A stretch of DNA of 64,000 nucleotides. It comes from Hexactinellida sp. DTS-2022 (Eukaryota > Porifera > Hexactinellida). The notes beneath the pieces were generated by a model that saw only the letters and a list, made by a program, of their open reading frames with translations, had not been told where the DNA came from and made no database searches. Positions 25,924 to 52,560 of this stretch are shown here, in pieces. The DNA is taken from contig JAPNXP010000002.1 of the NCBI GenBank assembly GCA_028753945.1, forward strand, positions 12,524,001 to 12,588,000, in the 5' to 3' direction. A program made the position numbers and the translations under genes. Each line of letters starts with the position of its first letter. Position 1 is the stretch's first letter.

Positions 25924-26040
25924 ATCCAAAATTGCAGCCTGTGCCGACGCATGTTCCCTTGGTGGTACTATATTTTGGTGGTCGTTTATTGATAGTACCT
26001 CCAAAGGAACTTGCTGTCGGCACAGGCTGCAATTTTGGAT
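25924..26040 (+). repeat. Array hairpin 4
   Basis: First plus-orientation hairpin. Arms ATCCAAAATTGCAGCCTGTG / CACAGGCTGCAATTTTGGAT pair fully at the base. The unit around it lacks the usual upstream half. Confidence 0.92.
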
Positions 26041-26407
26041 TTTTTTTCGCCATGTCATCATCACTATGAAGGTGTTAAATTATTTCAGAAGGCATCGACC
26101 CTTAGAGTGGTGGAAGTTTCCATTTAGTTCACTTCATTTTAGAGATATTTAAGTTTGAGTAGAATATAATAGCTGATGACTCAGCATTTTTTATGTGAGT
26201 GTTGGCTCATCACCCAACATCAACTAACCCATTTTAAATATCGAATTAACAAAATTGTAAAAACATATTTTTTTAACGATGTCATCATCACCTCAAGGTG
26301 TCAAGACCCACTTGTATAGGTGGGACGTGCCATAAGGACCAATTGATAAATTGAAAGTTTGTTTCTATCTTCTATGATCTCTGAGATTTATGATATTTAA
26401 TTAATTA

Positions 26408-26776
26408 GGCCGTATAAAATAAATAACTTGTTTATCATCCCCGCCCGCCCCAATTTTTACTATCCGTCCGGATCTATTTTATTATTATCTTATGAACATA
26501 ATCGTACAAAATATAAGCTATAAACTTGTGTAAAGTACCTACTATGCCTGAATTTTTAATAAGTCCTATATTTAAGAGCATTACTTTAATTATTTGGGCA
26601 TTGTCATGTTATTTTCTGATTTATAATAAATTCAATATGTAGTATATTTATTTTTTGGCATAGGATAATGTTATTTGCATATTAATGGGAATAAAAAATA
26701 AAAATAAAATCCCGTCCGCCGTCCCAATTTTATCGAAAAATATGGATGATAAACAAGTAATTTATTTTATGTGGCC
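26408..26776. mobile_element. 369 bp PIF/Harbinger-type MITE
   Basis: Inverted ends GGCC(G/A)TATAAAATAAAT... extend ~30 bp through AACTTGTTTATCATCC, with a 3 bp duplication TTA (26405-26407, 26777-26779). It interrupts an array unit between TTAATTAATTA and GTATA. Confidence 0.82.
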
Positions 26777-27122
26777 TTAGTATATATAATTATTAATATT
26801 ATTTTGTCATAAATAATAAATTAATTAATTTGGCTATCAAATTTCAATTCCGCACACTCGATAACCCCTAATAAACAAATTGGGAGCATCTATATAAGTC
26901 ATATACTGACTGAATTAATTATAATTAATTACGTCAGTATATTAACAGTGCAATAATATTCTCGCAGAAGTAAATATAATCACATAATCTGTCGTTGTTA
27001 TGGAATGTAAAATCTCGGTTTTCAATTGGAAAATAGAAGGCTACTCGATCTCACAAGTTGAATCAATATAATAATAACGAGTTGAAACAATAGAATTAAA
27101 TTTATCACTTTCAATTGAACTG

Positions 27123-27742
27123 GGCCCGTATTCACTAAGAAGTTAAGTACGTACTTAAGTACGTACTTAGTACTTAAGTACTAAGTATGTACTTAAGTCG
27201 TATTCACTAAGATTGGTATTCACTAAGATTTAAGTGTGTACTTAAGTACATACTTAAGTACAAAACTTAAGTAACCTACTAAGTTGACTTAACTTATAAG
27301 AATTTTCTTTTATTGACTCTTTAGACGTTGGTGTTTAATTAGAACATTGTATTAGATTTCTAGTAGTACTTGCTTTACTGTAGGGGAAGTTTATGATTCT
27401 ATTTTCAACATTTATTACAATTGGTTGTTGTTTTCTAAAAGTCTGTTTTTTCTCAAGCACAAAAATCACAGGAACTTCATTGAGAATATTCTTTTTAAAG
27501 TTAAAAGAATACAGCAAGCTATTACAATAGCATTCCATACACTAATATGCTATGCTATTAAACATAATTCAATAAATATAATTCAATTTCGTACTTAAGT
27601 ACGTACTTAGTTAAGTATGTACTTAAGTACAACAATATTTCTTAGTGAATACGACTTAAGTATGTACTTAACTAAGTACGTACTTAGTACTTAAGTATAT
27701 ACTTAGTACTTAAGTACTAAGTAATCTTAGTGAATACGGGCC
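27123..27742. mobile_element. 620 bp Harbinger-like MITE built of AAGTACGTACTT palindromes
   Basis: Inverted ends GGCCCGTATTCACTAAGA / TCTTAGTGAATACGGGCC with a 3 bp duplication CTG (27120-27122, 27743-27745). Internal arms are long runs of TACTTAAGTACGTACTTAG in both directions. It splits the array unit inside TTGAACTGAAGTG. Confidence 0.78.
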
Positions 27743-28078
27743 CTGAAGTGCTAATTAGTAAACAAAGAAATTTCAACTCCCATTTATGGCAGAAATATAA
27801 CTCTTTATTGAAAGTTTTCTTCTACGCAGAATTTTATGGTGAATCCAAATGTTAAAAAATTTTTGGGGGTTTAGTAAAACATTTTTCTAGTTATGGACCA
27901 GACAAATTTTGAAAGGTGTTAAAAACGTGTCCAAAATTTGTTAATATAAAATCGTAACCCCAGGTGCAAATTAGAAGGACCTTCCACATCTCCATGCCAA
28001 GTTTCAGCCCTCAATGTATAAAGGTGTGGCCAGGGCACCTGCTACGGAGAAAAAATATAGTCGGCACAGTAATAAAAA

Positions 28079-28195
28079 ATCCAAAATTGCAGCCTGTGCC
28101 GACGCATGTTCCTTTGGTGGCACTATATTTTGTTGATGGTTTATTGATAGTGCCTCCAAAGGAACATGCTGTCGGCGCAGGCTGCAATTTTGGAT
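28079..28195 (+). repeat. Array hairpin 5
   Basis: Full hairpin. The 3' arm has CGGCGCAGG against CCTGTGCCG, one G-T type mismatch shared by many copies. Confidence 0.92.
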
Positions 28196-28863
28196 TTTTT
28201 TTCGCCAAGTCATCAACGCCCAAGGTGTGAAGAACCATTTGTTAATTGGTCGGAGTCACAAGGAACAATTGTTTACTTTGAAGTTTGTTTCCATCATAAA
28301 CCATCTAGAGTTTAATGCCATTCATTCATTTTGTATTGATAATACAATATATTATTAGTAATTTATTTTAGCAATGTTATCCACGGTTAAGTTGAACAAA
28401 TTCATTATTTAATTTAATTTGTTTTAATTCATTAAATAGTAATACTACAATTAAATAGAAGCCAGCTGCAATTTATAAGTTAAATCAATATAATTATTAC
28501 AAGTTGAAACAATGGAATTAGATTTCACAGTTTTATTGAAATTGAAGTGTGAGTAAACAAAGAAATTTCATCCCCATTTATGGCAGAAATTAAACCAATT
28601 TTAACAAATTTTCTTCTCCCATCAGACGCAGAATTTTATGGTGAATCCAAATATGAAATAAAATTTGGGGGTTTATTAAAACATATTTTGAGCTATGGGC
28701 CAGACAAATTTTGAAAGGTGTCAAAGATGTGTCAAAAATTGGGTAATCAAAAATCGTAACCCCAGGTGCAAATTAGACGGTCCCATCGCACCTACATGCC
28801 AAGTTTCAGCCGTCAATGTATACAGGTGTGGCCAGGGCACCTGCTACGGAGAAAGAAATAAAA

Positions 28864-28980
28864 ATCCAAAATTGCAACCTGTGCCGACGCATGTTCCTTT
28901 GGTGGCACTATATTTTGTTGGTGGTTTATTGATAGTGCCTCCAAAGGAACATGCTGTCGGCGCAGGCTGAAATTTTGGAT
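28864..28980 (+). repeat. Array hairpin 6
   Basis: Arms carry AACCTGTG (5') and CAGGCTGA (3'), unpaired changes at neighbouring positions. Confidence 0.92.
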
Positions 28981-29737
28981 TTTTTTTCGCCAAGTCATCA
29001 ACGCCCAAGGTGTGAAGAACCATTTGTTAAGTGGTCGGAGTCACAAGGAACGATTGTTGAATTTGAAGTTTGTTTCTATCATAGACCATCTAGAGTTTAT
29101 TGCCATTCATTCATTTTGTATTGATAATAAAATATATTAGTAGTAATTTATTTTAGCAATGTTATCCACGGTTGGTTGAGTTGAGTCAACAAATTCCTTA
29201 TATTATATTAATTAATTTAATCCATTGTATAGTAATACTATAATTAAATAGAAGCCAGCTGGAATTTATAAGTTAAATCAATATAATTATCGCGAGTTGA
29301 ATCAATAGAGTAAGATTTAACAAGTTAAATCAATATAATTATTACAAGTTGAAACAATAGAATTAGATTCAATATAATTATTACAAGTTGAAACAATAGA
29401 ATTAGATTTAACAGTTTTACTGAATCTGAAGTGTGAGGAAACACAGGAGATTGGCACCCCAATTATGGCACAAACCTAGGCTAAATTGAACATTTGTGAA
29501 TTGCCAAAAGGTGTAGAATTTAATTTTCTATCCGTATATGTAAAATTTATAAAGCTAACTATTAATTATTTAATGCTATGAGCCATAATTAGTTGAAATA
29601 GGTGTTAAAATTATTTGATCAAAAATAGTAACCCCAGGTGCAAATTAGACGGTCACTCCGCAACTACATGCCAAATTTCAGCCCTTAATGTATACAGGTG
29701 TGGCCAGGGCACCTGCTACGGAGAAATAATAATAAAA

Positions 29738-29852
29738 ATCCAAAATTGCAGCTGTGCCGACGCATGTTCTTTTGGTGGCACTATATTTTGGTGGTGGTTT
29801 ATTGATAGTGCCTCCAATGGGACATGCTGTCAGCACAGCTGCAATTTTGGAT
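29738..29852 (+). repeat. Array hairpin 7, matched one-base deletions in both arms
   Basis: 5' arm GCAGCTGTGC and 3' arm GCACAGCTGC each lack one base of the usual GCAGCCTGTGC / GCRCAGGCTGC, so pairing is kept. Confidence 0.92.
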
Positions 29853-30964
29853 TTTTTTTTCGCCATGTCATCATCACTATGAAGGTGTTAAAATATTTCA
29901 AAAGGTGTTACAGAAGGCATCGACCCTTAGAGTGGCGGAAGTTTCCATTTAGTTCACTTCATTTTAAAGATATTCAAGTTTGAGTAGAATATAATAGCTG
30001 ATGACTCAGCATTTTTTATGTGAGTGTTGGGTCTTCACCCAACTTCAAATAACCCATTTTAAATATCGAATTAACAAAATTGTAAAACACATTTTTTTTA
30101 CGATGTCATCATCACCTCAAGGTGTCAATTCCCATTTGTAGAGGTGTTACGTGGCATAAGGATCAATTGATAAATTGAAAGTTTGTTTCTATCTTATTTG
30201 AATTCTGAGATTTATGATATTTAATTAATTAGTATAAATAATTATTAATATTATTTATAATATAACACCAATTTCAATGTCAACTTACAATTATTAAGTT
30301 AAATTATCTTGTCATAAATAATTAATTAATTAATTTGGTTATCAAATTTCAATTCCGCACACTCGATAACCCCTAATACACAAATTGGAAGCATCTATAT
30401 AAGTCATATACTGACTGAATTAATTATAATTAATTACGTCAGTCTATTAATAGTGCAAGAATATTCTCGCAGAAATAAATATAATCACATAATCTGTCGA
30501 TGTTGTGGAATGTAAAATCTTAGGTTTCAATTAGAAAATAGAAGCCTACTCGATCTCACAAGTTGAATCAATATAATTATTACAAGTTGAAACAATGGAA
30601 TTAGATTTCACAGTTTTACTGAAATTGAAGTGTGAGTAAACAAAGAAATTCCAACCCCTTTTTATGGCATGAATTAAACCGTTTATTAAAAAATTTCTTC
30701 TCCCATCAAAAACAGAATCTTATGATGAATCCAATCGTAAAATAAAATTTGGGGGTTTAGTAAAACATATTTTGAGTTATGGAGCAGACAAATTTTGTAA
30801 GGTGTTAAAGATGTGTCAAAAAATTTGTTAATCAAAAATCGGAACCCCAGGTGCACATCTGTAACCCATGAGACACCCATCCTAAAAATTTGGGCTCTTA
30901 ATTAATAAAACTCTGTTTTGTGGAGTGGCTACGGATAAAAAATAATAATAATAATAATAATAAA

Positions 30965-31080
30965 ATCCAAAATTGCAGCTGTGCCGACGCATGTTCCTTT
31001 GGTGGCACTATATTTTGGTGGTGGTTTATTGATAGTGCCTCCAATGGAACATGCTGTCGGCACAGGCTGCAATTTTGGAT
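30965..31080 (+). repeat. Array hairpin 8, deletion in 5' arm only
   Basis: 5' arm GCAGCTGTGC but 3' arm CACAGGCTGC. This is the half-changed state of hairpins 7, 13 and 16. Confidence 0.92.
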
Positions 31081-32399
31081 TTTTTTTCGCCATGTCATCA
31101 TCACTATGAAGGTGTTAAACTATTTCAGAAAAGTGATTCAAAAGGCAACGACCCTTAGTGAGTTGGAAGTTTCGTTTTAGCTCACTTCATTTGAGAGATA
31201 TTCAAGTTTCAGTAGAATATAATATGTGCTGAGTCAGCATTTTTTAGGTGCCGTTTGGGTATTCACCCAACTCCCACCAACCCATGCGAATTATTTAATT
31301 CACAAAATTGTAAAAATACATTTTTTTGACGATGTCATAATCACCTCAAGGTGTCAAGACCCACTTGTATAGGTGGTGCCTGGCATAAGGACCAATTGAT
31401 AAATTGAAAGTTTGTTTCTATCTTGTATCATCTCTGAGATTAATGAAATTTAGCTAATTAGTATAAATATTTAATTAATTTATTAATTATTTAACACCAT
31501 TATTATATACAGCAAAATAAATTAAGTTCAATTATTTGCAATTATTATTAATTTAAATTGAATTTCACTATAATATTTGAATTCCACGCACTCGATAACC
31601 CCAATAATCTATTTGGAACCATCTCTATACGGTAAACACAGAGCGAATTAATTAGAATTAAATATGTCAGTACATTAATTGTGCAAGAATAGTCTCGCCG
31701 AAATAAATATAATCACTTTATCTGTCGTTGTTGTGGTATGTAAAATCTTAACGGTTCTATCATAAACCATCTTTAGTTTAATGCCATTCATTCATTACTT
31801 GTTGATAATAAATTAAATTATTAGTTATTTATTTTAGCAATGTTATCCACGGTGATTTGAGTTTAGTCAACAAATTCCTTATATCATTATATTTTATTTA
31901 ATCCATTGTATAGTAATACTACAATTAAATAGAAGCCAGCTGGAATTTATAAGTTGAATCAATATATTTATCTCAAGTTGAAACAATAGAGTAAGATTTA
32001 ACAAGTTAAATCAATATAATTATTACAAGTTGAAACAATAGAATTAGATTTAACACTTTTACTGAAATTGAAGTGTGAGTAAACAAAGAAATTTCAAACC
32101 CCATTTATGGCAGAAATTAAACATATTTTTGAAAATATTCCTCTCCAAACAGACGCAGAATTTTATGGAGAATCCAAATGTGAAATAAAATTTGGGGGTT
32201 TAGTAAAACATATTTTGAGTTATGGACCAGACAAATTTTGAAAGGTGTTAAAGATGTGTCAAAAATTCGTTAATCAAAAATCGTAACCCCAGGTGCAAAT
32301 TAGACGGTTCATACGCACCTACATGCCAAGTTTCAGCCCATCAACTATAAAGCTCAGGCCAGGGCACCGTCTACGGAGAAAAAATACAAATAAAAAAAA

Positions 32400-32516
32400 A
32401 TCCAAAATTGCAGCCTGTGCCGACGCATGTTCCTTTGGTGGCACTATATTTTGGTGGTGGTTTATTGATAGTGCCTCCATAGGAACATGCTGTCGGCGCA
32501 GGCTGCAATTTTGGAT
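32400..32516 (+). repeat. Array hairpin 9
   Basis: Full hairpin. 3' arm has CCATAGGAAC where CCAAAGGAAC is usual. Confidence 0.92.
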
Positions 32517-33807
32517 TTTTTTTCCGCCATGTCATCATCACTATGAAGGTCTTAAATTATTTCAGTAAGGTGTTTCAGAAGGCAACGATCCTTAGAGTCG
32601 TGGAAGTTTCCATTTTGCCCACTTCGTTTCAAAGATATTCAAGTTTCAGTAGAATATAATAAGTGATGAGTCTGCATTTTTTATGTGAGTGTTGGGTCAT
32701 CACCCAACACCAACTAACCCATTTTAAATGTCGAATTAAAAAAATTGTAAAAATACATTTTTTTGACGATGTCATCATCAATCACCTCAAGGTGTCAAGA
32801 CCCACTTGTGTAGGTTGTACGTGGCATAAGGACCAATTGATAAATTGAAAGTTTGTTTATATCTTGTATCATCTCTGAGATTAATGAAATTTAGCTAATT
32901 AGCATAAAAATTTAATTAATGTATTAATTATTTAACACCATTATTATATACAGCAAAATAAATTAAGTTCAATTATTTGCAATTATTATTAATTTAAATT
33001 GAATTTCACTATAATGTTTGAATTCCACGCACTCGATAAACCCAATAATCCAATTGGAACCGTCTATAAGTTAAATACAAAAGGAATTAATTATAATTAA
33101 TTACGTCAGTACATTAATTGTGCAAGAATATTCTCGCCGAAATAAATATATTCACTTAATCTGTCGTTGTTGTGGAATGTAAAATCTTAACGGTTCTATC
33201 ATAAACCATCTTTAGTTTAATGCCATTCATTCATTACTTATTGATAATAAATTATATTATTAGTTATTTATTTTAGCAATGTTATCCACGGTTAAGTTGA
33301 ATTAAGTCAACAAATTCCTTATATTATAATATTTTATTTAATCCATTGTATAGTAATACTAGAATTAAATAGAAGCCAGCTGGAATTTATAAGTTGAATC
33401 AATATAATTATCGCAAGTTGAATCACTAGAGTAGGATTTAACAAGTTAAATCAATATAATTATTACAAGTGAAATTGAAGTGTGAGTAAACAAAGAAATT
33501 TCAACCCCCATTTATGGCAGAAATTAAACCATTTATTGAAAATTTTCTTCACCCATTAGACGCAGAATTTTATGGTGAATCCAAATATGAAATAAAATTT
33601 GGGGGTTTAGTAAAACAATTTTTGAGTTATGGACCAGACAAAATTTGAAAGGTGTTAAAGATGTGTAAAAAATTTGTTAATCAAAAATCGTAACCCCAGG
33701 TGCAAATTAGACGGTCCTATCGCACCAACATGCCAAGTTTTAGCCCATCAACTCTAAAGCTCTGGCCAGGGCACCGTCTACGGAGAAAAAAAAAAAAAAT
33801 AATAATA

Positions 33808-33930
33808 AAGGCAGTGATTCCAATACTGGGCCACTATACTATAGTATAGTCGGCACAGTAATAAATAAAATAAATAAAGGCAGTGATTCCAATACTGGGC
33901 CACTATACTATAGTATAGTCGGCACAGTAA
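33808..33930 (+). repeat. Palindromic minisatellite, 2 copies
   Basis: Two copies of GGCAGTGATTCCAATACTGG...ACTATACTATAGTATAGT..CGGCACAGTA placed immediately before hairpin 10. Confidence 0.92.
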
Positions 33931-33933
33931 AAA

Positions 33934-34050
33934 ATCCAAAATTGCAGCCTGTGCCGACGCATGTTCCTTTGGTGGCACTATATATTTTTGTTGGTTTATT
34001 GATAGTGCCTCCAAAGGAACATGCTGTCGGCGCAGGCTGCAATTTTGGAT
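33934..34050 (+). repeat. Array hairpin 10
   Basis: Full hairpin, loop shifted by an inserted ATTTTTGTTGG. Confidence 0.92.
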
Positions 34051-34800
34051 TTTTTTTCGCCAAGTCATCAACGCCCAAGGTGTGAAGAAGCATTTGTTAT
34101 TTGGTCCGAGTCACAAGGAACGGTAGATAAATTTGAAGTTTGTTTCTATCATAAACCATCTAGAGTTTAATGCCATTCATTCATTATGTATTGATAATAA
34201 ATTATATTATTAGTTAGTTATTTTAGCAATGTTATCCACGGTGATTTGAGTTTAGTCAACAAATTCCTTATATTATTGTATTTTATTTAATCCATTGTAT
34301 AGTAATACTACAATTAAATAGAAGCCAGCTGGAATTTATAAGTTGAATCAATATAATTATCGCAAGTTGAAACAATAGTGAAAGATTTAACAAGTTAAAT
34401 CAATATAATTATTACAAGTTGAAACAATAGAATAAAATTCAATATAATTATTACAAGTTGAAACAATAGAATTGGATTTAACAGTTTTACTGAATCTCAA
34501 GTGTGAGGAAACACAGGAGATTGGCACCCCAATTATGGCACAAACCTAGGCTAAATTGAACATTTGTGAATTGCCAAAAGGTGTAGAAATTAATTCTCTA
34601 TCCGTATGTGTAAATTTTATCAAGCTCAATATTAATTATTTCATGTTATGAGCCATAATTAGTTTAAATAGGTGTTAAAATTATTTGATCAAAAATCGTA
34701 ACCCCAGGTGCAAATTAGACGGTCATTTCGCAACTACATGCCAAGTTACAGTCCTCAATGTATACAGGTGTGGTCAAGGCACCGTCTACGGAGAAAAAAA

Positions 34801-34917
34801 ATCCAAAATTGCAGCTGTGCCGACGCATGTTCCTTCGGTGGCACTATATTTTGTTGGTGGTTTATTGATAGTGCCTCCAAAGGAACATGCTGTCGGGCGC
34901 AGGCTGCAATTTTGGAT
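34801..34917 (+). repeat. Array hairpin 11, deletion in 5' arm only
   Basis: 5' arm GCAGCTGTGCC; 3' arm GTCGGGCGCAGGCTGC with an extra G. Half-changed state. Confidence 0.92.
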
Positions 34918-35069
34918 TTTTTTCGCCAAGTCATCAACGCCCAAGGTGTGAAGAACCATTTGTTAAGTGGTCGGAGTCACAAGGAACGATTGTTGAATTT
35001 GAAGTTTGTTTCTATCATAAACCATCTAGAGTTTAATGCCATTCATTCATTATGTATTGATAATAAATT

Positions 35070-35253
35070 ATGAAATTACTTATATAGAGCTGAGCTTTGT
35101 AGAGTTCAGTTTTTCACTATGTGTATTCATGCACTGAGAAAGGTCAGTTTTTTTTCCAGAGTTTGAAATTGACCTTTAGAAAGTAAGCCTGGGCTTTTAG
35201 TATGGGAAAAAATCTGAACTCTACAAAGCTCAGCTCTATATAAGGATTCCCAT
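35070..35253. mobile_element. 184 bp MITE with ~31 bp perfect TIR
   Basis: Inverted cores CTTATATAGAGCTGAGCTTT (and on through GTAGAGTTCAG) lie a few bases inside the insertion edges. Comparison with other units at AATAAATTATATTATTAG fixes the edges. AAATT repeats on both sides (35065-35069, 35254-35258), though in AT-rich context. Superfamily not assigned. Confidence 0.72.
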
Positions 35254-35835
35254 AAATTATATTATTAGTTATATATTTTTGCAATGTTATCCACGGTGAT
35301 TTGAGTTTAGTCAACAATTTCCTTATATTATTATATTATATTTAATCCATTGTATAGTAATACTAGAATTAAATAGAAGCCAGCTGGAATTTATAAGTTG
35401 AATCAATTTAATTATCGCAAGTTGAAACAATAGTGAAAGATTTAACAAGTTAAATCAATATAATTATTACAAGTTGAAACAATGGAATTAGATTTCACAG
35501 TTTTATTGAAATTGAAGTGTTGAGTAAACAAAGGAATTTCAACCCCCATTTATGGCAGAAATTAAACAAATTTTAACAAATTTTCTTCTCCCATCAGACG
35601 CAGAATTTTATGGTGAATCCAAATATTAAATAAAATTTGGGGGTTTATTAAAACATATTTTGAGCTATGGGCCAGACAAATTTTGAAAGGTGTCAAAGAT
35701 GTGTCAAAAATTGGGTAATCAAAAATCGTAACCCCAGGTGCAAATTAGACGGTCCCTCCGCAACTACATGCCAAGTTTCTGCCCTAAATGTATACAGGTG
35801 TGGCCAGGGCACCTGCCACGGAGAAATAAAAAAAA

Positions 35836-35952
35836 ATCCAAAATTGCAGCCTGTGCCGACGCATGTTCCTTTGGTGGCACTATATTTTGTTGGTTGTTTA
35901 TTTATAGTGCCTCCAAAAGAACATGCTGTCGGCGCAGGCTGCAATTTTGGAT
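35836..35952 (+). repeat. Array hairpin 12
   Basis: Full hairpin. Loop-side TTTATAGTGCC and 3' arm CCAAAAGAAC differ from consensus. Confidence 0.92.
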
Positions 35953-37266
35953 TTTTTTTTCGCCAAGTCATCATCACTATGAAGGTGTTAAATTATTTCA
36001 AAAAGGTGTTACAGAAGGCATCGACCCTTAGAGTGGTGGAAGTTTCCATTTAGTTCATATAATTTTAGAGATATTCAAGTTTGAGTAGAATATAATAGCT
36101 GATGACTCAGCATTTTTTATTTGTGTGTTGGGTCATCACCCAACATCAACTAACCCATTTTAAATATCGAATTTAAAGAATTGTAAAAATACATTTTTTT
36201 GACGATGTCATAATCACCTCAAGGTGTCAAGACCCACTTGTATAGGTGGTACCTGGCATAAGGACCAATTGATAAATTGAAAGTTTGTTTCTATCTTGTA
36301 TCATCTCTGAGATTAATGAAAATTATCTAATTAGTATAAATATTTAATTAATTTATTTATTATTTAACACCATTATTATATACAGCAAAATAAATTAAGT
36401 TCAATTATTTGCAATTATTATTAATTTAAATTGAATTTCACTATCATATTTGAATTCCACGCACTCGATAACCCCAATAATCTATTTGGAACTGTCTATA
36501 AGTTAAATACAAAATGAATTAATTATAATTAATTAAGTCAGTCATTAATTGTGCAAGAATATTCTCGCCGAAATAAATATAATCACTTAATCTGTCGTTG
36601 TTGTGGAATGTAAAATCTTAACGGTTCTATCATAAACCATCTTTAGTTTAATGCCATTCATTCATTATGTATTGATAATAAATTATATTATTAGTTATTT
36701 ATTTTAGCAATGTTATCCATGGTTGGTTGAGTTGAGTCAACAAATTCCTTATATTATATTATTTAATTTAATCAATTGTATAGTAATACTAAATTAAATA
36801 GAAGCCAGCTGGAATTTATAAGTTAAATCAATATAATTATCGCAAGTTGAATCACTAGAGTAGGATTTAACAAGTTAAATCAATATAATTATTACAAGTT
36901 GAAACAATAGAATTAGATTTAACACTTTACTGAAATTGAAGTGTCAGTAAACAAAGAAATTTCAACCCCCATTTATGGCAGAAATTGACCCCTTTATTGA
37001 AAAATTTCTTCTCCCATCAGACGCAGAATTTTATGGCGAATCCAAATGTGAAATAAAATTTTGGGGTTTAGTAAAACATTTTTTGAGTTATGGACCAGAC
37101 AAATTTTGAAAGGTGTTAAAGATGTGTCAAAAATTTGTTAATACAAAATCGTAACCCCAGGTGCAAATTAGACGTCGACTCCGAATCTACATGCCAAGTT
37201 TCAGCCCTCTATGTATACAGGTGTGGCCAGGGCACCTGCTACGGAGAAATAATAATAATATAAATA

Positions 37267-37522
37267 AAGGCAGTGATTCCAATACTGGGCCACTATACTA
37301 TAGTATAGTCGGCACAGTAATAATAAAAATAAAAATAAAGGCAGTAAGATTAGAACTGGGCCACTATACTATAGTATAGTCGGCACAGTAATAAAATAAA
37401 TAATAAAGGCAGTGATTCCAATACTGGGCCACTATACTATAGTATAGTCGGCACAGTAAAAATAATAAAGGCAGTGATTCCAATACTGGGCCACAATACT
37501 ATAGTATAGTCGGCACAGTAAA
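37267..37522 (+). repeat. Palindromic minisatellite, 4 copies
   Basis: Copies start near 37267, 37337, 37404 and 37467. The second uses the alternative left half GTAAGATTAGAACTGG, the others GTGATTCCAATACTGG. The fourth has CACAATACTATAG. Confidence 0.92.
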
Positions 37523-39873: not shown

Positions 39874-39876
39874 AAA

Positions 39877-41104: not shown

Positions 41105-41289
41105 TTTTTTCGCCAAGTCATCATCACTATGAAGGTGTTAAATTATTTCAAAAAGGTGTTACAGAAGGCATCGACACTTAGTGTGGTGGAAGTTTCCATT
41201 TAGCTCACTTCATTTTAGAGATATTCAAGTTTCAGTAGAATATAATATGTGCTGAGTCAGCTTTTTTTATGTGCGTGTTGGGTATTCAC

Positions 41290-41765
41290 CAGGGTTGCCA
41301 ATCCAATCCAATCCAATCGACAATCCAATCCAATCGAGCCAAATTTGGACAATCGGCAATACAAATTTCGACAATCGATTATTCGGATGAGAATCCAATC
41401 GCAATCGACAATCCAAAATATCATCGATTTTTTTGGATTGTTTCTCCGATTTTTTTGTATCGTTCACTCCTCAGTATTATATCAAAAAGAGTTATGTTTC
41501 ATCATATGTTCAAACTTAAAACATATATTATTGGGTTTAATTGACGAGTATTTTAAATTTTGGCATTATTTAGAAATTAAAAAACAAACAATCAAAAAAA
41601 TCGATGAAAATTCATCGATTGCAATCCAATCGATAAAAATCGAAGCAATCCAATCGACAATCCAATCGATGAAAAGTGCAGCAATCCAACCGATAATCCA
41701 ATCGATGAAAAATACAGCAATCGGCAATCGAAAATCTTCTCGATTGGATTGGATTGGCAACCCTG
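41290..41765. mobile_element. 476 bp hAT-type MITE filled with a CCAATCCAATCGA motif
   Basis: Inverted ends CAGGGTTGCCAATCCAATCC / GGATTGGATTGGCAACCCTG with a perfect 8 bp duplication GTATTCAC (41282-41289, 41766-41773). Both halves are ATCCAATCGA-type repeats with an AT-rich middle (41440-41590). It interrupts the array unit at GGGTATTCACCCAAC. Confidence 0.95.
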
Positions 41766-41954
41766 GTATTCACCCAACTCCAACCAACCCATGCGAATTA
41801 TTTAATTCACAAAATTGTAAAATACATTTCTTTGACGATGTTATCATCACCTCAATGTGTCAAGACCCACTTGTATAGGTGGTACGTGGCATAAGGACCA
41901 ATTGATAAATTGAAAGTTTGTTTCTATCTGCTATCATTTCTGAGATTAATGAAA

Positions 41955-42861
41955 CGAGCCCTTCGGTCTCGGTCGCTTCGCGACGGATCACTCTCTCACA
42001 AAGGTCGCTTCGCGACCTTTGTTCGTTCGTATTAGACACTACGCAAAACAATTAACGGCCGCTTCGCGGCCTTACTCTCCTCAAATATAACTCATATTAA
42101 ATAAGTTAAGCCTGTGACTGGTAAATTACACGCACTCAATTCAGTATGCTGCTATTTGGGACCCCAGTATGTCAAGTAATTAATTAATTCATTCATGTTA
42201 TTTACTAACCCAGGATTTTAACAGCATAGTAGTAAATTGTTTGTAAATAGTTGAATTACTTTGATAGTAATATTATGCTTATGTGATTGACGTAAGCTAA
42301 ATACATCACGAATAGAAATAAACTGATGGAAGCCAAACTGGATTAATCAAGTATGCAATTTCGGAAATAATGTAGGTGAGATTAAATCATCAAACCTCAA
42401 TATGTGCAATGACGCAGCAATTGTAGGTTACATTTTTGTTATTGCCTGGCTCAGATTAAATGCGAAAATTATAAAAATTTCTAGAGACATGCAACACATT
42501 CTGTTTTATAACGTGACAAAATTGTTTGACGATTGAATCAAAAATGTAAGAGCTGAATCAAAATTAGTTCGTACGTGACGTAACAATCCCATAAATCGGT
42601 ATACGTGTGTCTCATTTCATGTTGTTTTGCTATCTAAAATTGTGGGCGAATCGGATAAGAACTGAAAGAGTTATTCCCAAATATGTGCGTTTGTGATGTC
42701 ATAATCCCGTTATTTTGTTTAGAAAACCAATAGATCGTTGTCGCAGTACAAAATTACCCCTGCATGCCAATTTTCAGCTTTCTGGGACTTGTAGTCTTTC
42801 CAATTAATTCTGGACAAACACACAAACACACAAACAACAATTGCGCTTTTAATATAGAGAT
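41955..42861 (-). mobile_element. ~0.9 kb Helitron-like insert
   Basis: Comparison with other units shows it lies between A and T of GAAA|TTTAG without a target duplication. On the minus strand it starts TCTCTATATTAAAAGCGC and ends GACCGAAGGGCTCG. A 5' TC start and A|T insertion fit Helitrons, but the 3' CTCG is not the usual CTRR. The 3' region has several hairpins with GCTTCGC loops (GGTCGCTTCGCGACC, GGCCGCTTCGCGGCC). Related pieces lie at 23230-23817 and 25470-25785. Confidence 0.5.
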
Positions 42862-43589
42862 TTAGATAATTAGTATAAATATTTAGTTAATCTATTAATA
42901 ATTTCACACCAATATTATGTACATCAGAATAAATTAAGTTCAATTATTTGCAATAATTATTAATCTAAATTGAATTTCATTATATTATTTAAATTCAGCG
43001 CACACGATAACCCCAATAATCTAATTGGAACCGTCTCTATAAGTTAAACACAGAGCGAATTAATTAGAATTAAATATGTCATGTATCCATTGTGCAAAAA
43101 TATTCTTGCAGAAGGAAATATAATCACATAAACTGTCGTTGTTATGAAATATATAATCTTAGTTTTCAATTGGAAAATAGAAGCCTACTCGATCTCACAA
43201 GTTAAATCAATATAATAATCACAAGTTGAAACAATAGAATTAGATATAATACTTTCAATTGAACTGAAGTGTTAGTAAACAAAGGAAATTTGCAACTCTA
43301 TTGTGGCACTAATGAAACCCAATTTAGAAATTCGTGCACTGTGAAAGGTGTAGAATTTAATTCTCTATCGAATGCATATAAATTAAATATACGGGTACTA
43401 TTTATTGTTCCTGTTTCAATATTAAACAGGTGCAAATATGTGTCCAAATAAATCTAATAAAAAATCGTGACCCCAGGTGCACATCTGTAACCCATGAGAC
43501 ACATATCCTGAAATTTTGGGTTCTTAGTTAACTTTACTCTGTTCAGTGGATGAGCTACGAAAGAATAATATTAATATTAATCGGTAACC

Positions 43590-43913
43590 AAAGCACTAAG
43601 ATTAGAACTCGGCCACTATACTATAGTATAGTCGGCACAGTCATAATAATAAAGGCAGTGATTCCAATACTGGGCCACTATACTATAGTATAGTCGGCAC
43701 AGTAAAAATAAAGGCAGTGATTCCAATACTGGGCCACCATACTATACAGGGGCGTATACTCGGGATGGGGATTGCCCGGATTGGTAGGGCCATTTATGCT
43801 AACTTGCATCATACTTAATAGAAGATGATGGCTCTTGACAAATTATTGGTAGGGCCATGGCCTCACCAACCCTACCGGAGCCTACGCCTATGCTATAGTA
43901 TAGTCGGCACAGT
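43590..43913 (+). repeat. Palindromic minisatellite, 3 copies, last split by a MITE
   Basis: Two full copies, then a third interrupted at its central palindrome by the element 43747-43892; the remainder ends CGGCACAGTA next to hairpin 17. Confidence 0.9.
43747..43892. mobile_element. 146 bp MITE inside a minisatellite palindrome
   Basis: Ends CAGGGGCGTA / TACGCCTATG are imperfectly inverted, with GGTAGGGCC internal motifs. CTATA occurs on both sides but a clean 8 bp duplication is not seen because the target is itself palindromic. Confidence 0.65.
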
Positions 43914-43914
43914 A

Positions 43915-44027
43915 AAAATTGCAGCCTGTGCCGACGCATGTTCCTTTGGTGGCACTATATTGTGTTGGTGGTTTATTGATAGTGCCTCCAATGGAACATG
44001 CTGTCGGCACATGCTGCAATTTTGGAT
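43915..44027 (+). repeat. Array hairpin 17, 5' base lost
   Basis: 5' arm begins AAAAATTGCAGCC, so the ATCCAA start has been lost at the junction with the minisatellite tail. 3' arm has CACATGCTGC. Confidence 0.88.
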
Positions 44028-45100
44028 TTTTTTCCGCCATGTCATCATCACTATAAAGGTGTTAAATTATTTCAGAAAGGTGTTTCAGAAGGCTACGACC
44101 CTTAGAGTGGTGGAAGTTTCGTTTTAGCTCACTTAATTTCAGAGTTATTCAAGTTTTCAGTCAATGTAATAGGTGATGAGTTAGAATTTTTTATGTGCGT
44201 GTTGGGTGATCACCCAAAACCAACCGACCCATTTGAATTATATAATTCACAAAATTGTGAAAACACATTTTTTTTACGATGTCATCAACACCTCAAGGTG
44301 TCAAGACACATTTGTAGTGGTGCTACGTGGCATAAGGATCAATTGATAAATTGGAAGTTTGTCTCTATCTTGTATCATCTCTGAGATTTATGATATTTAA
44401 TTAATTAGTATAAATAATTATTAATAATTTAACACCAATTTCAATGTCAACTTATATTTATTAAGTTTAATTATTTTGATAAAATAATTAATTAATTAAT
44501 TTGGCTATCAAATTACAATTCCGCACACTCGATAACCCCTAATAAACAAATTGGGAGCATCTATATAAGTCATATACTGACTGAATTAATTATAATTAAT
44601 TACGTCAGTATATTAACAGTGCAAGAGTATTCTTGCAGAAGGAAATATAATCACATAATCTGTCGTTGTTATGAAATATATAATCTTTTTTTTCAATTGG
44701 AAAATAGAAGCCTACTCGATCTCACAAGTTGAATCAATATAATAATAACGAGTTGAAACAATAGAATTAGATTTAACACTTTCAATTGAACTGAAGTGTT
44801 AGTAAACAAAGGAAACTTGCAACTCAATTGTGGCACAAACGAAACCCAATTTAAAAATTCGTGCACTGTGAAAAGGTGTAGAATTTAATTCTCTATCGAA
44901 TGCATATAAATTAAATATTCACGCACTATTTATTGTTCTTTTTCAAATATTAAACAGGTGCAAAAATGTGTCCAAAAAAATGTAATAAAAAATCGTGACC
45001 CCAGGTGCACATCTGTAACCCATGAGACACATATCGTGAAAATTTGGGCTCTTAGTTTACAAAACTCTGTTCTGTGGACGATCTACGGACTAATAATAAA

Positions 45101-45217
45101 ATCCAAAATTGCAGCCTGTGCCGACGCATGTTCATTTGGTGGCACTATATTTTGGTGGTGGTCTATTGATAGTGCCTCCAATGGAACATGCTGTCGGCAC
45201 AGGCTGCAATTTTGGAT
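45101..45217 (+). repeat. Array hairpin 18
   Basis: Full hairpin. 5' arm has TGTTCATTTGG, loop GGTCTATTG. Confidence 0.92.
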
Positions 45218-46304
45218 TTTTTTTCCACCAAGTCATCATCACTATAAAGGTGTTAAATTATTTCAGAAAGGTGTTTCAGAAGGCTACCACCCTTTGAGTG
45301 GTGGAAGTTTCCATTTTGCTCACTTCGTTTCAAAGATATTCAAGTTTCAGTAGAATATAATAAGTGATGAATCAGCATTTTTTATGTGAGTGTTGGGTCA
45401 TCACCCAACTCCAACTAACCCATTTTTATAATATAATTCACAAAATTGTAAAAATACATTTTTTTGACGATGTCATCATCACCTCAAGGTGTCAAGATCC
45501 ACTTGTATAGGTGGTACGTGCCATAAGGACCAATTGATAAATTTAAAGTTTGTTTCTATCTTGTATCATTTCTGAGATTAATGAAATTTAGATAATTAGT
45601 ATAAATATTTAATTAATCTAAGATAATTTAACACCAATATTATTTACATCAAAATAAATTAAGTTCAATTATTTGCTATAATAATTAATTTAAATTTAAT
45701 TTCACTATCATATTTGAATTCAGCGCACTCGATACCCCAATAATCTAATTGGAACCGTTTCTCTAAGTTAAACACAGAGCGAATTAATTAGAATTAAATA
45801 TCTCATGTATCCATTGTTCAAGAATATTCTGAGCAGAAATAAATATAATCACATAATCTGTTGTTGTTATGGAATGTAAAATCTTAGTTTTCAATTAGAA
45901 AATAGAAGCCTACTCGATCTCACAAGTTGAATCAATGTAATTATCACAAGTTGAAACAATAGAATTCGATTTAACACTTCAATTGAACTGAAGTGTTAGT
46001 AAACAAAGGAAACTTGCAACTCAATTGTGGCACAAACGAAACTCAATTTAAAAATTCGTGCACTGTGAAAAGGTGTAGAATTTAATTCTCTATCGAATGC
46101 ATATAAATTAAATATTTGTGCACTATGTATTGTTCTTTTTCTAATATTAAACAGGTGCAAAAATGTGTCCAAAAAAATGTAGTAAAAAATCGTGACCCCA
46201 GGTGCACATCTGTAACCCATGAGACACCTGTCCTGAAATTTTGGGTTCTTAGTTAATTAAACTCTGTTCAGTGGACGATCTACGGACCAAAAATAATAAT
46301 AAAA

Positions 46305-46420
46305 ATCCAAAATTGCAGCCTGTGCCGACGCATGTTCCTTTGGTGGCACTATATTTTGGTGTGGTTTATTGATAGTGCCTCCTATGGAACATGCTGTCGG
46401 CACAGGCTGCAATTTTGGAT
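46305..46420 (+). repeat. Array hairpin 19
   Basis: Full hairpin with CCTATGGAAC in the 3' arm. First hairpin of the 3.73 kb higher-order repeat. Confidence 0.92.
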
Positions 46421-47513
46421 TTTTTTTCCGCCATGTCATCATCACTACGAAGGTGTTAAATTATTTCAGAAAGGTGTTTCAAAAGGCAACGACCCTTAGT
46501 GAGTTGTAAATTTCTTTTATGCTCACTTCATTTCAAAGATATTCAAGTTTCAGTAGAATATAATAGCTGATGACTCAGCATTTTTTATGTGAGCTCTGGG
46601 TCATCACCCAAAACGAACCGACCCATTTGAATTATATAATTCACAAAATTGTGAAAACACATTTTTTTTATGATGTCATCATCACCTCAAGGTGTCAAGA
46701 CCCACTTGTAGAGGTGTTACGTGGCATAAGGATCAATTGATAAATTGGAAGTTTGTTTCTATCTTATTTGATTTCTGAGATTTATGATATTTAATTAATT
46801 AGTATAAATATTAATTAATATTATTTATAATTTAACACCAATTTCAATGTCAACTTACAATTATTAAATTAAATTATTTTGTCATGAATAATAAATTAAT
46901 TATTTTGTTATCAAATTTCAATTAAGCACTCTCGATAACCCCTAATAAACAAATTATAAGCATCTATATAAGTAATATACTGACTGAATTAATTATAATT
47001 AATTACGTCAGTATATTAACAGTGCAATAATATTCTCGCAGAAGTAAATATAATCACATAATCTGTCGTTGTTGTGAAATATATAATCTTTTTTTCAATT
47101 GGAAAATAGAAGCCTACTCGATCTCACAAGTTGAATCAATATAATAATAACGAGTTGAAACAATAGAATTAGATTTAACACTTTCAATTGAACTGAAGTG
47201 TTAGTAAACAAAGAAATTTCAACCCCAATTTATGGCATGAATCAAACCTATTAGTAAAAACATTCATCTCCCATCAGATGGAGAATTTTATAGTGAATCC
47301 AATGGTGAAAAGAAAATTGGGGGTTTAGTATAACATTCTTTGAGTTATGGACCAGACAAAATTTGAAAGGTGTCAAAAAAAAGTCCAAAATTTGTTAATA
47401 AAATATCGTGACCCCAGGTGCACATCTGTAACCCATGAGACACCTGTCCTGCAAATTTGGGTTGTTAGTTAATTAAACTCTGTTCTGTGGATGAGCTACG
47501 GAAGAATAATAAA

Positions 47514-47631
47514 ATCCAAAATTGCAGCCTGTGCCGACGCATGTTCCTTTGGTGGCACTATATTTTTGTTGGTTGTTTATTGATAGTGCCTCCAAAGGAA
47601 CATGCTGTTGGCAAAGGCTGCAATTTTGGAT
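47514..47631 (+). repeat. Array hairpin 20
   Basis: 3' arm GTTGGCAAAGG departs from GTCGGCACAGG without a matching change. Confidence 0.92.
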
Positions 47632-48712
47632 TTTTTTTCCGCCATGTCATCATCACTATGAAGGTGTTAAATTATTTCAGAAAGGTGTTTCATAATGGCA
47701 ACGACCCTTAGTGAGTTGGAAGTTTCGTTTTAGCTCACTTCATTTCAAAGATTTTCAAGTTTCAGTAGAATATAATAAGTGATGAGTCAGCATTTTTTAT
47801 GTGCGTGTTGGGTGATCACCCAACACCAACCAACCCATTCGAAGTATAGAATTCACAAAATTGTAAAAACACATTTTTTTGACGATGTCATCATTACCTC
47901 AAGGTGTCAGGACCCATTTGTAGAGGTGTTACGTGGCATAAGGATCAATTGTTAAATTTGAAGTTTGTTTCTATCTTATATCATCTCTGAGATTTATGAT
48001 ATTTAATTAATTAGTATAAATAATTATTAATATTATTTATAATATGACACCAATTTCAATGTCAACTTACAATTATTAAGTTAAATTATTTTGTCATATA
48101 TAATTAATTAATTTGGTTATCAAATTTCAATTCCGCACTCTCGATAACCCCTAATAAACAAATTGGAAGCATCTATATAAGTAATATACTGACTGAATTA
48201 ATTATAATTAATTACGTCAGTCTATTAATAGTGCAATAATATTCTAGCAGAAGGAAATATAATCACACAATCTGTCGTTGTTATGGAATGTACAATCTTA
48301 GTTTTCAATTAGAAAATAGAAGCCTACTAGATCTCACAAGTTGAATCAATATAATAATAACGAGTTGAAACAATAGATTAGATTTAACACTTACAATTGA
48401 ACTGAAGTGTTAGTAAACAAAGGAAACTTGCAACTCAATTGTGGCACAAACTAAGTACAATTTTAAAATTCGTGCACTGTGAAAAGGTGTAGAATTTAAT
48501 TCTCTATCGAATGCATATAAATTTAATTTTCGGGTACTATTTATTGTTCCAGTTTCAATATTAAACAGGTGCAAAAATGTGTCCAAAAAAATGTAATAAA
48601 AAATCGTGACCCCAGGTGCACATCTGTAACCCATGAGACACCTGTCCTGAAAATTCCAGTTCTTAGTAAATATAACTCTGTTCTGAGGAGAGGATACGGA
48701 TAAATAATAAAA

Positions 48713-48828
48713 ATCCAAAATTGCAGCCTGTGCCGACGCATGTTCATTTGGAGGCACTATATTTTGTGGTGGTTTATTGATAGTGCCTCCAAAGGAACAT
48801 GCTGTCGGCACAGGCTGCAATTTTGGAT
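48713..48828 (+). repeat. Array hairpin 21
   Basis: The 5' arm has GGAGGCAC, which pairs exactly with GTGCCTCC; other copies have GGTGGCAC here. Confidence 0.92.
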
Positions 48829-49911
48829 TTTTTTTCGCCAAGTCATCATCACTATGAAGGTGTTAATTATTTCAAAAAGGTGTTACAGAAGGCATCGACC
48901 CTTAGAGTGGTGGAAGTTTCCATTTAGTTCACTTCATTTTAGAGATATTCAAGTTTGAGTAGAATATAATAGATGATGACTCAGCATTTTTTATGTGAGT
49001 GTTGGTTCATCACCCAACATCAACTAACCCATTTTAAATATCGAATTAACAAAATTGAAAAAACACATTTTTTTAACGATGTCATCATCACCTCAAGGTG
49101 TCAAGACCCACTTGTATAGGTGGTGCGTGCCATAAGGACCAATTGATAAATTGAAAGTTTGTTTATATCTGATATAATTTCTGAGATTAATGAAATTTAG
49201 CTAATTAGTATAAATATTTAATTAATTTATTAATAATTTAACACCAATATTATGTATATCAAAATAAATGAAGTTCAATTATTTGCAATTATTATTAATT
49301 TTAATTTCATTTCATTATAATAATTGAATTCAGCGCACTCGATAACCCCAATAATCTAATTGGAACCGTCTCTATAAGTTAAACACAGAACGAATTAATT
49401 ATAATTAAATATGTCATGTATCCATTGTGCAAGAATATTCTAAGCAGAAATAAATATAATCACATAATCTGTCGTTGTTATGGAATGTAAAATCTTAGTT
49501 TTCTATTAGAAAATAGAAGCCTACTCGATCTCACAAGTTGAATCAATATAATAATAACGAGTTGAAACAATAGAATTAGATTTAACACTTCAATTGAACT
49601 GAAGTGTTAGTAAACAAAGGGATTTTGCAACTCAATTGTGGCACAAACGAAGCGCAATTTGAAAATTCGTGCACTGTGAAAAGGTGTAGAATTTAATTCT
49701 CTATCGAATGCATATAAATTAAATATTCTCGCACTATTTAATGTTATTTTTCCAATATTAAACAGGTGCAAAAATGTGTCCAAAAAATGTAATAAAAATC
49801 GTGACCCCAGGTGCACATCTGTAACTCATGAGACACATATCCTGAAAATTTCAGTTCTTAGTTACTAAAACTCTGTTCTGTGGAGGATCTACGGACCAAT
49901 AATAATAATAA

Positions 49912-50030
49912 CCAAAGCACTAAGACCAATACTGGGCCACTATACTATAGTATAGTCGGCACAGTAATAACTAACCAAAGCACTAAGATTAGAACTGGGC
50001 CACTATACTATAGTATAGTCGGCACAGTAA
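49912..50030 (+). repeat. Palindromic minisatellite, 2 copies
   Basis: Left halves AACCAAAGCACTAAGACC and ACTAAGATTAGAACTGG; both keep the 18 bp palindrome. Confidence 0.9.
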
Positions 50031-50034
50031 TAAA

Positions 50035-50151
50035 ATCCAAAATTGCAGCCTGTGCCGACGCATGTTCCTTTGGTGGCACTATATTTTTGTGGTTGTTTAT
50101 TGATAGTGCCTCCAAAGGAACATGCTGTCGGCACAAGCTGCAATTTTGGAT
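50035..50151 (+). repeat. Array hairpin 22
   Basis: 3' arm CACAAGCTGC, unmatched. Together with its downstream unit it repeats 46305-47500 at +3730 bp. Confidence 0.92.
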
Positions 50152-51241
50152 TTTTTTTCGCCATGTCATCATCACTATGAAGGTGTTAAATTATTTCAGA
50201 AAGGTGTTTCAAAAGGCAACGACCCTTAGTGAGTTGTAAATTTCTTTTATGCTCACTTCATTTCAAAGATATTCAAGTTTCAGTAGAATATAATAGCTGA
50301 TGACTCAGCATTTTTTATGTGAGCTCTGGGTCATCACCCAAAACGAACCGACCCATTTGAATTATATAATTCACAAAATTGTGAAAACACATTTTTTTTA
50401 CGATGTCATCATCACCTCAAGGTGTCAAGACCCACTTGTAGAGGTGTTACGTGGCATAAGGATCAATTGATAAATTGGAAGTTTGTTTCTATCTTATTTG
50501 ATTTCTGAGATTTATGATATTTAATTAATTAGTATAAATATTAATTAATATTATTTATAATTTAACACCAATTTCAATGTCAACTTACAATTATTAAATT
50601 AAATTATTTTGTCATGAATAATAAATTAATTATTTTGTTATCAAATTTCAATTAAGCACTCTCGATAACCCCTAATAAACAAATTATAAGCATCTATATA
50701 AGTAATATACTGACTGAATTAATTATAATTAATTACGTCAGTATATTAACAGTCCAATAATATTCTCGCAGAAGTAAATATAATCACATAATCTGTCGTT
50801 GTTGTGAAATATATAATCTTTTTTTTCAATTGGAAAATAGAAGCCTACTCGATCTCACAAGTTGAATCAATATAATAATAACGAGTTGAAACAATAGAAT
50901 TAGATTTAACACTTTCAATTGAACTGAAGTGTTAGTAAACAAAGAAATTTCAACCCCAATTTATGGCATGAATCAAACCTATTAGTAAAAACTTTCATCT
51001 CCCATCAGATGGAGAATTTTATAGTGAATCCAATGGTGAAAAGAAAATTGGGGGTTTAGTATAACATTCTTTGAGTTATGGACCAGACAAAATTTGAAAG
51101 GTGTCAAAAAAGTCCAAAATTTGTTAATAAAAAATCGTGACCCCAGGTGCACATCTGTAACCCATGAGACACCTGTCCTGCAAATTTGGGTTGTTAGTTA
51201 ATTAAACTCTGTTCTGTGGATGAGCTACGGAAGAATAAAAA

Positions 51242-51358
51242 ATCCAAAATTGCAGCCTGTGCCGACGCATGTTCCTTTGGTGGCACAATATTTTGTTGTT
51301 GGTTTATTGATAGTGCCTCCAAAGGAACATGCTGTCGGCACAGGCTGCAATTTTGGAT
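51242..51358 (+). repeat. Array hairpin 23
   Basis: Full hairpin; loop side GGCACAATA. Confidence 0.92.
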
Positions 51359-52443
51359 TTTTTTTTTCGCCATGTCATCATCACTATGAAGGTGTTAAAT
51401 TATTTCAGAAAGGTGTTTCAGAAGGCAACGACCCTTTAGAGTGGTGGAAGTTTCCATTCAGCTCACTTCATTAAAGAGATATTCAAGTTTCAGTAGAATA
51501 TAATCTGTAATGACTCAGCATTTTTTAAGTGGGTGTTGGGTCATCACCCAACATTAACTAACCCATTTTTAATATCGAATTAACAAAATTGTAAATACAC
51601 ATTTTTTTAACGATGTCATCATCACCTCAAGGTGTCAAGACCCACTTGTATAGGTGGCACGTGTCATAAGGACCAATTGATAAATTGAAAGTTTGTTTCT
51701 ATCTTCTATGATCTCTGAGATTTATGATATTTAATTAATTAGTATAAATAATTATTAATATTATTTATAATATGACACCAATTTCAATGTCAACATACAA
51801 TTATTAAGTTCAATTATTTTGTCATAAATAATTAATTAATTAATTTGGCTATCAAATTTCAATTCCGCACACTCGATAACCTCTAATAAACAAATTGGAA
51901 GCATCTATATAAGTCATATACTGACTTAATTAATTATAATTAATTACGTCAGTATTTTAACAGTGCAAGAGTATTCTTGCAGAAGGAAATATAATCACAT
52001 AATCTGTCGTTGTTATGGAATGTAGAATCTTAGTTTTCAATTGGAAAATAGAAGCCTACTCGATCTCACAAGTTGAATCAATATAATAATAACGAGTTGA
52101 AACAATAGAATTAGATTTAACACTTTCAATTGAACTGAAGTGTTAGTAAACAAAGGAAACTTGCAACTCAATTGTGGCACAAACTAAGTACAATTTGAAA
52201 ATTCGTGCACTGTGAAAAGGTGTAGAATTATATTCTCTATCGAATGCATATAAATTTAATTTCGGGTACTATTTATTGTTCCTGTTTCAATATTAAACAG
52301 GTGCAAAAATGTGTCCAAAAAAATGTAGTAAAAAATCTTAACCCCAGGTGCACATCTGTAACCCATGAGACACTTGTCCTGAAAATTTCAGTTCTTAGTT
52401 AATTAAACTCTGTTCTGTGGAGAGGATACGGAAGGATAAAAAA

Positions 52444-52560
52444 ATCCAAAATTGCACCCTGTGCCGACGCATGTTCCTTTGGTGGCACTATATTTTATTG
52501 GTTGGTTATTGATAGTGCCTCCAAAGGAGCATGCTGTCAGCACAGGGTGCAATTTTGGAT
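52444..52560 (+). repeat. Array hairpin 24, matched substitution in both arms
   Basis: 5' arm GCACCCTGTGC pairs with 3' arm GCACAGGGTGC; consensus is GCAGCCTGTGC / GCRCAGGCTGC. Confidence 0.92.

Follow-up and report, generated by a model that had tools for sequence, protein, structure and literature searches.

The stretch analysed here, referred to as the window, comprises 64,000 nt of Hexactinellida sp. DTS-2022 (contig JAPNXP010000002.1, positions 12,524,001 to 12,588,000, forward strand), from a genome of 112.4 Mb in 18 contigs. It has a GC content of 29-41% in 2-kb windows and carries an array of long hairpins, each of which ends a unit of a non-autonomous transposon of the Helentron/HINE type. 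When a 126-nt copy was used as a blastn query against the whole window, 21 hairpins of about 126 nt were found in plus orientation between 25920 and 52565, together with three in the opposite orientation (6411-6535, 7044-7169 and 8264-8389). The tandem array of 21 copies reported in the initial annotation is present, with all copies in the same direction; the three reversed hairpins were missing from that account. Against dinucleotide shuffles, the three copies that were folded have z-scores between -13.5 and -17.0. The spacing between hairpins is irregular, ranging from 785 to 2929 bases. Coordinates of the array, of its 5' modules, and of a second element copy are collected in the table.

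Table. Features of the hairpin-ended element in the window (window coordinates)
Feature	Position	Strand	Basis or remark
Array, 21 head-to-tail element units	25920..53767	-	element sense = minus; 5' end ~53765, 3' hairpin end 25920
3' terminal hairpin, outer 3' end of array	25920..26045	-	flank GAAGAT, then AAAAATCC
3' hairpin	28075..28200	-	blastn
3' hairpin, arm changes not matching	28860..28985	-	blastn + alignment
3' hairpin, base lost in both arms; haplotype as in 37538	29734..29857	-	blastn + alignment
3' hairpin, base lost in single arm	30962..31085	-	blastn + alignment
3' hairpin	32396..32521	-	blastn
3' hairpin	33930..34055	-	blastn
3' hairpin, base lost in single arm	34797..34922	-	blastn + alignment
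3' hairpin	35832..35957	-	blastn
3' hairpin, base lost in both arms	37538..37660	-	blastn + alignment
3' hairpin, single-arm change (C opposite C)	38964..39089	-	blastn + alignment
3' hairpin, paired C/G to A/T	39873..39997	-	blastn + alignment
3' hairpin, base lost in both arms	40986..41109	-	blastn + alignment
3' hairpin, outermost tail replaced	43915..44032	-	blastn + alignment
3' hairpin	45098..45222	-	blastn
3' hairpin; adjoining DNA 99.8% identical to copy on contig C1	46301..46425	-	blastn + comparison
3' hairpin	47511..47636	-	blastn
3' hairpin	48709..48833	-	blastn
3' hairpin	50032..50156	-	blastn
3' hairpin	51238..51363	-	blastn
3' hairpin, paired G/C to C/G; adjoining DNA identical to that of L044_3903 (C1)	52440..52565	-	
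Two 5' modules (inverted repeat GTCGGCACAG + palindrome ACTATACTATAGTATAGT)	33825..33927	-	
Four 5' modules	37284..37518	-	
One 5' module	39838..39871	-	
Four 5' modules	40758..40980	-	
Three 5' modules, one of them degenerate	43607..43912	-	
Two 5' modules	49931..50027	-	
Seven 5' modules, array's 5' end; last one ends GTCGGCACAGTAAAAA	53320..53765	-	
Second element copy, three hairpins opposite in orientation to array	4752..8394	+	
Empty paralogous site matching the second copy (4752-8394), GTGTTAGTGTATGA|AAAAAGTGGGTGAACTAG around 13985	13950..14030	.	

Self-comparison places the limits of the repeated DNA at the hairpin: the repeat starts sharply at the outer end of a hairpin, which reads AAAAATCCAAAATTGCAGCCTGTGCCGAC, and stops one unit or one array further on, at an element end reading ACTATACTATAGTATAGTCGGCACAGTAAAAA. 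In element sense the two ends are TTTTTACTGTGCC and GGATTTTT, and the 5' TC and 3' CTRR ends of canonical Helitrons are absent from them. At the 5' terminus stands a module, about 60 bp long, that combines an inverted 10-mer with a palindrome. Subterminal inverted repeats of 10 bp (CTGTGCCGAC / GTCGGCACAG) are found near both ends; on the minus strand, the 10-mer CTGTGCCGAC lies close to the 5' end and the inverted 10-mer about 19 nt inside the 3' end. Right ends are not all clean, and two loci (L032, L048) stop within a 5' module. The hairpin forms the 3' terminus of a non-autonomous Helentron/HINE rolling-circle transposon. A short palindromic unit in high copy number could also come from an unrelated foldback miniature inverted-repeat transposable element (MITE) within a satellite, but at the isolated loci looked at the outer end of the hairpin is the element boundary, and three autonomous copies, described below, have this hairpin at their end; the MITE explanation is already contradicted and retains hardly any probability. 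The target is T-rich and shows no clear duplication, with the exact junction uncertain because of A runs. At six loci (L034, L038, L049, L043, L045, L037) no repeat abuts both ends, leaving aside the A run and, at L043, a single base. An automatic search for empty sites returned mostly array-internal joins, and the single clean case was kept.

The family is widely dispersed. Whole-hairpin DNA searches returned nothing, very common words being skipped, and genome-wide counts were made with exact patterns: a 21-mer of the arm occurs 3,094 times (1,602 and 1,492 in the two orientations; reversed-pattern control, 0) and a 22-mer of the 5' end 5,458 times. Because 16 of the 24 window hairpins carry the 21-mer, the genome may hold roughly 4,600 hairpins, an estimate drawn from one window. 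For comparison, 20 stretches of 10 kb were taken from another contig, C1, each picked for holding the exact 21-mer, and gave with the 24 window copies 109 hairpin hits, 104 of them complete enough for alignment; the 21-mer is absent from 33 of these 104. Since the C1 loci were chosen in this way, the terminal arm there is biased towards conservation, a bias from which the 24 window copies are free. Other DNA is embedded in the window copies. From about 4890 to 5698, the second copy has no match to the family and looks to contain an unrelated insert. One array unit is interrupted by an insert of about 615 bp (27127-27742, ends CGTATTCACTAAGA / TCTTAGTGAATACG) with the look of a separate transposon of the inverted-repeat type, and a stretch at 26402-26782 has inverted ends (GGCCGTATAAAATAAATAACTTGTTTATCATCC and its complement); GGCCGTATAAAATAAATAACTTGTTTATCATCC also borders an element copy in L046, near 8809.

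Candidates for an autonomous partner were sought among the matches to Helitron_like_N, which occur at no fewer than 151 places and fall into two score classes. In a class-B copy at 5.54 Mb of C1, one open frame of 1,700 amino acids holds a Rep match, a PIF1 helicase match, and a C-terminal OTU-like part (phmmer, 1.2e-5 to a viral OTU chain and 2.1e-4 to OTUD1; Pfam OTU, 0.083, below the cut-off). Its stop codon is followed by an untranslated region (UTR), the unit's 3' module, and then the hairpin. The hairpin also ends both further autonomous copies fetched, that is, three of three in all, and in each of them the body start of another unit comes after it. Three 3' sides and one 5' side were fetched; on the latter, that of the C1:5.54 Mb copy, the palindromic part of the shared 5' module is followed by the unit's 5' body. 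Because the autonomous copy has the same 3' hairpin, 3' module, 5' body, and part of the 5' module, the non-autonomous unit looks like an internal-deletion derivative. The shared ends, taken with the Rep/PIF1/OTU-like frame, make the two a rolling-circle pair of the HINE/Helentron type. A 360-nt query laid across the junction of UTR and 3' module spanned it at its own position and at four other places (three matching 1-360, one 11-360), matched up to 221 only at one place, and from 217 on only at 34 listed places, with 40 of 1,970 candidates scored. Five of the six places matching residues 1-341 of the protein P0001 (query counted) have the junction.

The first open frame of the autonomous gene (L054, 360-1667) carries a 2A-like motif, GGIEINPGPG, close to its start. 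Score-class A Helitrons were rejected as the partner: in one copy, two fetched stretches held neither the hairpin nor the 10-mer, bar one 10-mer hit with two mismatches. A second Helitron score class (L051 and L052, C1:2.90-2.91 Mb) has open frames of up to 1,930 amino acids; the gene of the copy inspected is flanked by tandem repeats on both sides.

The layout of the ends is much as described for HINE and Helitron2 (PMC4067079, PMC7492417, PMC5148889). Helentron, HINE, and DINE-1 elements, as presented in PMC4067079, share with the present family non-autonomous copies with subterminal inverted repeats, palindromes towards both ends, a T-rich target without duplication, and an autonomous partner with a Rep-helicase and an OTU-like part. 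However, the 3' hairpin is here 126 nt long and contains the subterminal repeat, while mite HINEs have palindromes of 5-10 bp; units are also arrayed whole here, and an endonuclease in the partner is putative. Canonical Helitrons are similar in having a rolling-circle Rep-helicase, a 3' hairpin, and no target duplication, and differ in their 5' TC and 3' CTRR ends, in that the present subterminal repeats are inverted, and in the much larger hairpin here (PMC4067079). In the oyster, Cg_HINE is also a dispersed element of this class associated with tandem repeats, but in PMC7492417 these are satellite-like monomers inside one element, whereas whole elements with their own ends are stacked in the sponge. 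FoHeli/Helitron2 of Fusarium resembles the family in its asymmetric terminal repeats, in some ATTTT ends, and in several 5' termini ascribed to self-insertion; those are single cases in PMC5148889, whereas here there are thousands of copies and a 21-unit array with a testable order. Literature searches turned up related elements and, among the entries listed, no paper on this hairpin-ended family. We regard it as new within the Helentron/HINE kind, on account of the unusually large 3' hairpin and the ordered, self-stacked arrays.

Tandem arrays of rolling-circle transposons are a possible seed of satellite DNA and have so far, according to the same Fusarium study (PMC5148889), been explained by self-insertion or by rolling-circle concatemers: self-insertion was proposed there for elements with several 5' ends, with rolling-circle replication as the alternative for the tandem case. 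In the present family, copies number in the thousands, autonomous partners have open frames, and the internal order can separate the two explanations. Identity in the DNA beside the hairpin was compared where a match of at least 300 nt was available, which was the case for 93 of 104 copies and for 19 of the 21 in the window array. Neighbours are 88.1% identical (11 pairs), non-adjacent copies 88.0%, and copies on C1 88.4%. A best match within its own array was seen for one window copy of 19, and overall for 5 copies of 93, where 7.0 would be expected at random. Since neighbours are no more alike than distant copies, array members appear mostly to have arrived separately, which argues against concatemers copied from one circle and against growth by unequal crossing-over. 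Both processes would account for the head-to-tail order, and for three tandem Helitrons in Fusarium PMC5148889 allows for either route, rolling-circle replication or insertion into the 5' end, but best matches are found mostly elsewhere, and 5' modules are piled up instead of standing one per unit. Concatemers or crossing-over are accordingly unlikely as the source of the arrays, although multi-unit blocks could still have moved together.

The order of the parts bears on the same question. Nineteen arrays were scanned, with L031 and L044 outside the scan, and the 14 judged complete contain 61 hairpins and 76 5' modules, with a rank correlation of 0.92. In element sense, the count of 5' modules never falls behind that of hairpins, as in a series of opening and closing brackets, in 12 of the 14 arrays (shuffled mean 5.5, P 0.0002). 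The window array has 20 internal junctions. In 13 of them the hairpin is followed directly by a body, with no 5' module, in six by a 5' module, and in one (28075) by a module remnant beside the end of a body; insertion into the T-rich spacer that separates 5' module from body would leave such a pattern. From this near-bracket order and from neighbours being no more alike than other copies, we infer growth by self-insertion into the element's T-rich spacer. The units are very probably non-autonomous elements of the HINE/Helentron type whose arrays arose by insertion into their own copies.

In such a process the Rep protein would nick at the element's 5' end, and the unwound strand would end at the 3' hairpin, in whose terminal arm the 10-mer would serve for recognition. 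Insertion of the product would be into T-rich DNA and would leave no target duplication. Between its 5' module and its body the element itself carries a (TTA)n/oligo-T spacer; this would be a preferred site of insertion and would determine the orientation, so that new copies would land head-to-tail within older ones and leave piled 5' modules in a bracket-like order. It may be, though we put this forward tentatively, that the oriented T-rich spacer serves the element as its own landing site, that the element therefore stacks inside itself in one direction, with nested brackets recording the order of insertion, and that the giant hairpin, while single-stranded, lets one arm be rewritten from the other.

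Several observations weigh against the assignment to HINE/Helentron-type elements that grow by self-insertion. No Pfam match to an endonuclease domain was found in the partner protein; only GDFN and SDH-P, putative endonuclease motifs, were seen by eye in P0001. For many other copies of the autonomous family, the junction search, with 40 of 1,970 candidates scored, brought up no such 3' junction. The 10-mer of the autonomous 5' end would fall just upstream of the fetched stretch, and one such end only was seen. Likewise, only one empty site was found; it lies near 13985 in an A/T run, and the A run blurs its exact junction. Modules and hairpins are not one-to-one (76 and 61), and two of 14 arrays depart from the bracket order. 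Another five arrays, truncated or extending past the end of the locus, were excluded, and four of these are unbalanced as seen; two earlier scans for 5' modules gave a poorer balance, the first having missed degenerate copies and the second having dropped those adjacent to hairpins. Finally, about 19 nt separate the 10-bp inverted repeat from the 3' end, while mite HINEs have one of 12-15 bp at 38-60 (PMC4067079).

The hairpin arms were initially thought to have changed together in five copies. In the alignment, the loss of one base in both arms is indeed present in three copies (29734, 37538, 40986), as are the paired substitutions at 39873 (C/G to A/T) and 52440 (G/C to C/G). All five are real, but the list was selective and omitted unpaired changes of the same array: a base is lost from one arm at 30962 and 34797, one arm is changed at 38964, leaving C opposite C, the changes at 28860 do not match, and at 43915, 47511, and 50032 changes lie nearby in the other arm only. 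One more paired change, absent from that list, is found in the inner stem at 25920. Over the changed stretch, the copies at 29734 and 37538 have one and the same hairpin haplotype, and the events behind the five copies may therefore number fewer than five.

With gaps set aside, the 24 window copies have three pairs changed on both sides, against a shuffled mean of 0.2 (0 of 500 shuffles as high); when the partner was slid by 1-3 columns, the count was 0 to 2. In the alignment of 104 hairpins, 10 types of matched substitution are found together within a copy, in 17 cells against 2.4 expected under independence, beside 116 single-arm substitution types. Arm covariation is real but weak. Paired changes stand above shuffles in the window copies, but several are shared by descent and mismatches are kept in relatives. 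Three T18 copies are 98-99% identical in the adjoining DNA, and two C18 copies are identical there. C opposite C is carried by four copies at different loci whose adjoining DNA is 96-98% identical. At single stem positions, mismatches stand uncorrected as T/G in 33 of 104 copies and as T/T in 24 of 104. Compensatory evolution through G-U intermediates did not emerge: paired changes exist, and wobble-forming changes account for 21 of 50 transition types, about half being expected.

The terminal arm is conserved as sequence. In the window, its 10-mer CTGTGCCGAC (pairs 20-29) has 0 departures in 240 and the partner arm 20 in 240; in copies without the 21-mer, the same pairs have 6 departures in 330 in the terminal arm and 31 in 330 in the partner. 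Just outside the 10-mer, pairs 18-19 vary strongly (43 of 208 cells, terminal arm), even between copies whose adjoining DNA is 97-99% identical.

The initial annotation had offered two explanations of the paired changes. The first was that the folded RNA is selected, the array being a tandem hairpin-RNA (hpRNA) or small-RNA precursor cluster. The very stable hairpins in the three folded copies and the excess of paired changes over shuffles in the window would fit this, but the unit is a transposon whose terminus is shared with an autonomous Rep-helicase element, constraint falls on the terminal arm's 10-mer and not on its drifting partner, wobble-forming changes are not enriched, mismatched states are common to related copies at different loci, and Rfam gave no match at gathering thresholds. 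The invariant 10-mer with a drifting partner and the lack of wobble enrichment argue against selection on a folded RNA, which on the available sequence is not supported and seems very improbable. In the second explanation, gene conversion or template switching lets the arms correct each other; the element might be single-stranded at the time. As a cause of the paired changes this is compatible with transposon identity and does not compete with it. Template switching that restores stem pairing has been described (PMC8794818). The 10 matched types in 17 cells speak for it, although shared haplotype ancestry inflates the 17 cells, and so does the best single case of arm copying, L036_8506, in which one arm matches the other both at a substitution and at a 1-nt bulge kept in the other aligned copies, whereas L035_6524, a relative with 99% identity in the DNA next to the hairpin, has the other-arm change only. 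The 116 single-arm types and the persistent T/G and T/T mismatches speak against it. Arm correction fits a minority of events and does not cover most, and we give it a little under an even chance. The paired changes seem largely to be inherited hairpin haplotypes, with a few that look like one arm copied from the other. The family thus shows that hairpin changes of compensatory appearance can come about in a transposon end where the folded RNA is under no clear selection.

Other features of the window include two further transposons. On the minus strand at 60716-63255, a frame with a THAP domain (62224-63255) and one with a TNP-like RNase H (60716-61867) represent a P-element/THAP9-like transposase, and on the plus strand at 19784-21687 open frames with a BED zinc finger and hAT dimerisation region represent a hAT transposon. 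An OTU-like frame at 12925-13269 (plus strand) has an E of 0.0013, below the Pfam cut-off. Just outside the array, at 24825-25133 on the minus strand, lies a Fibronectin type III exon-like frame.

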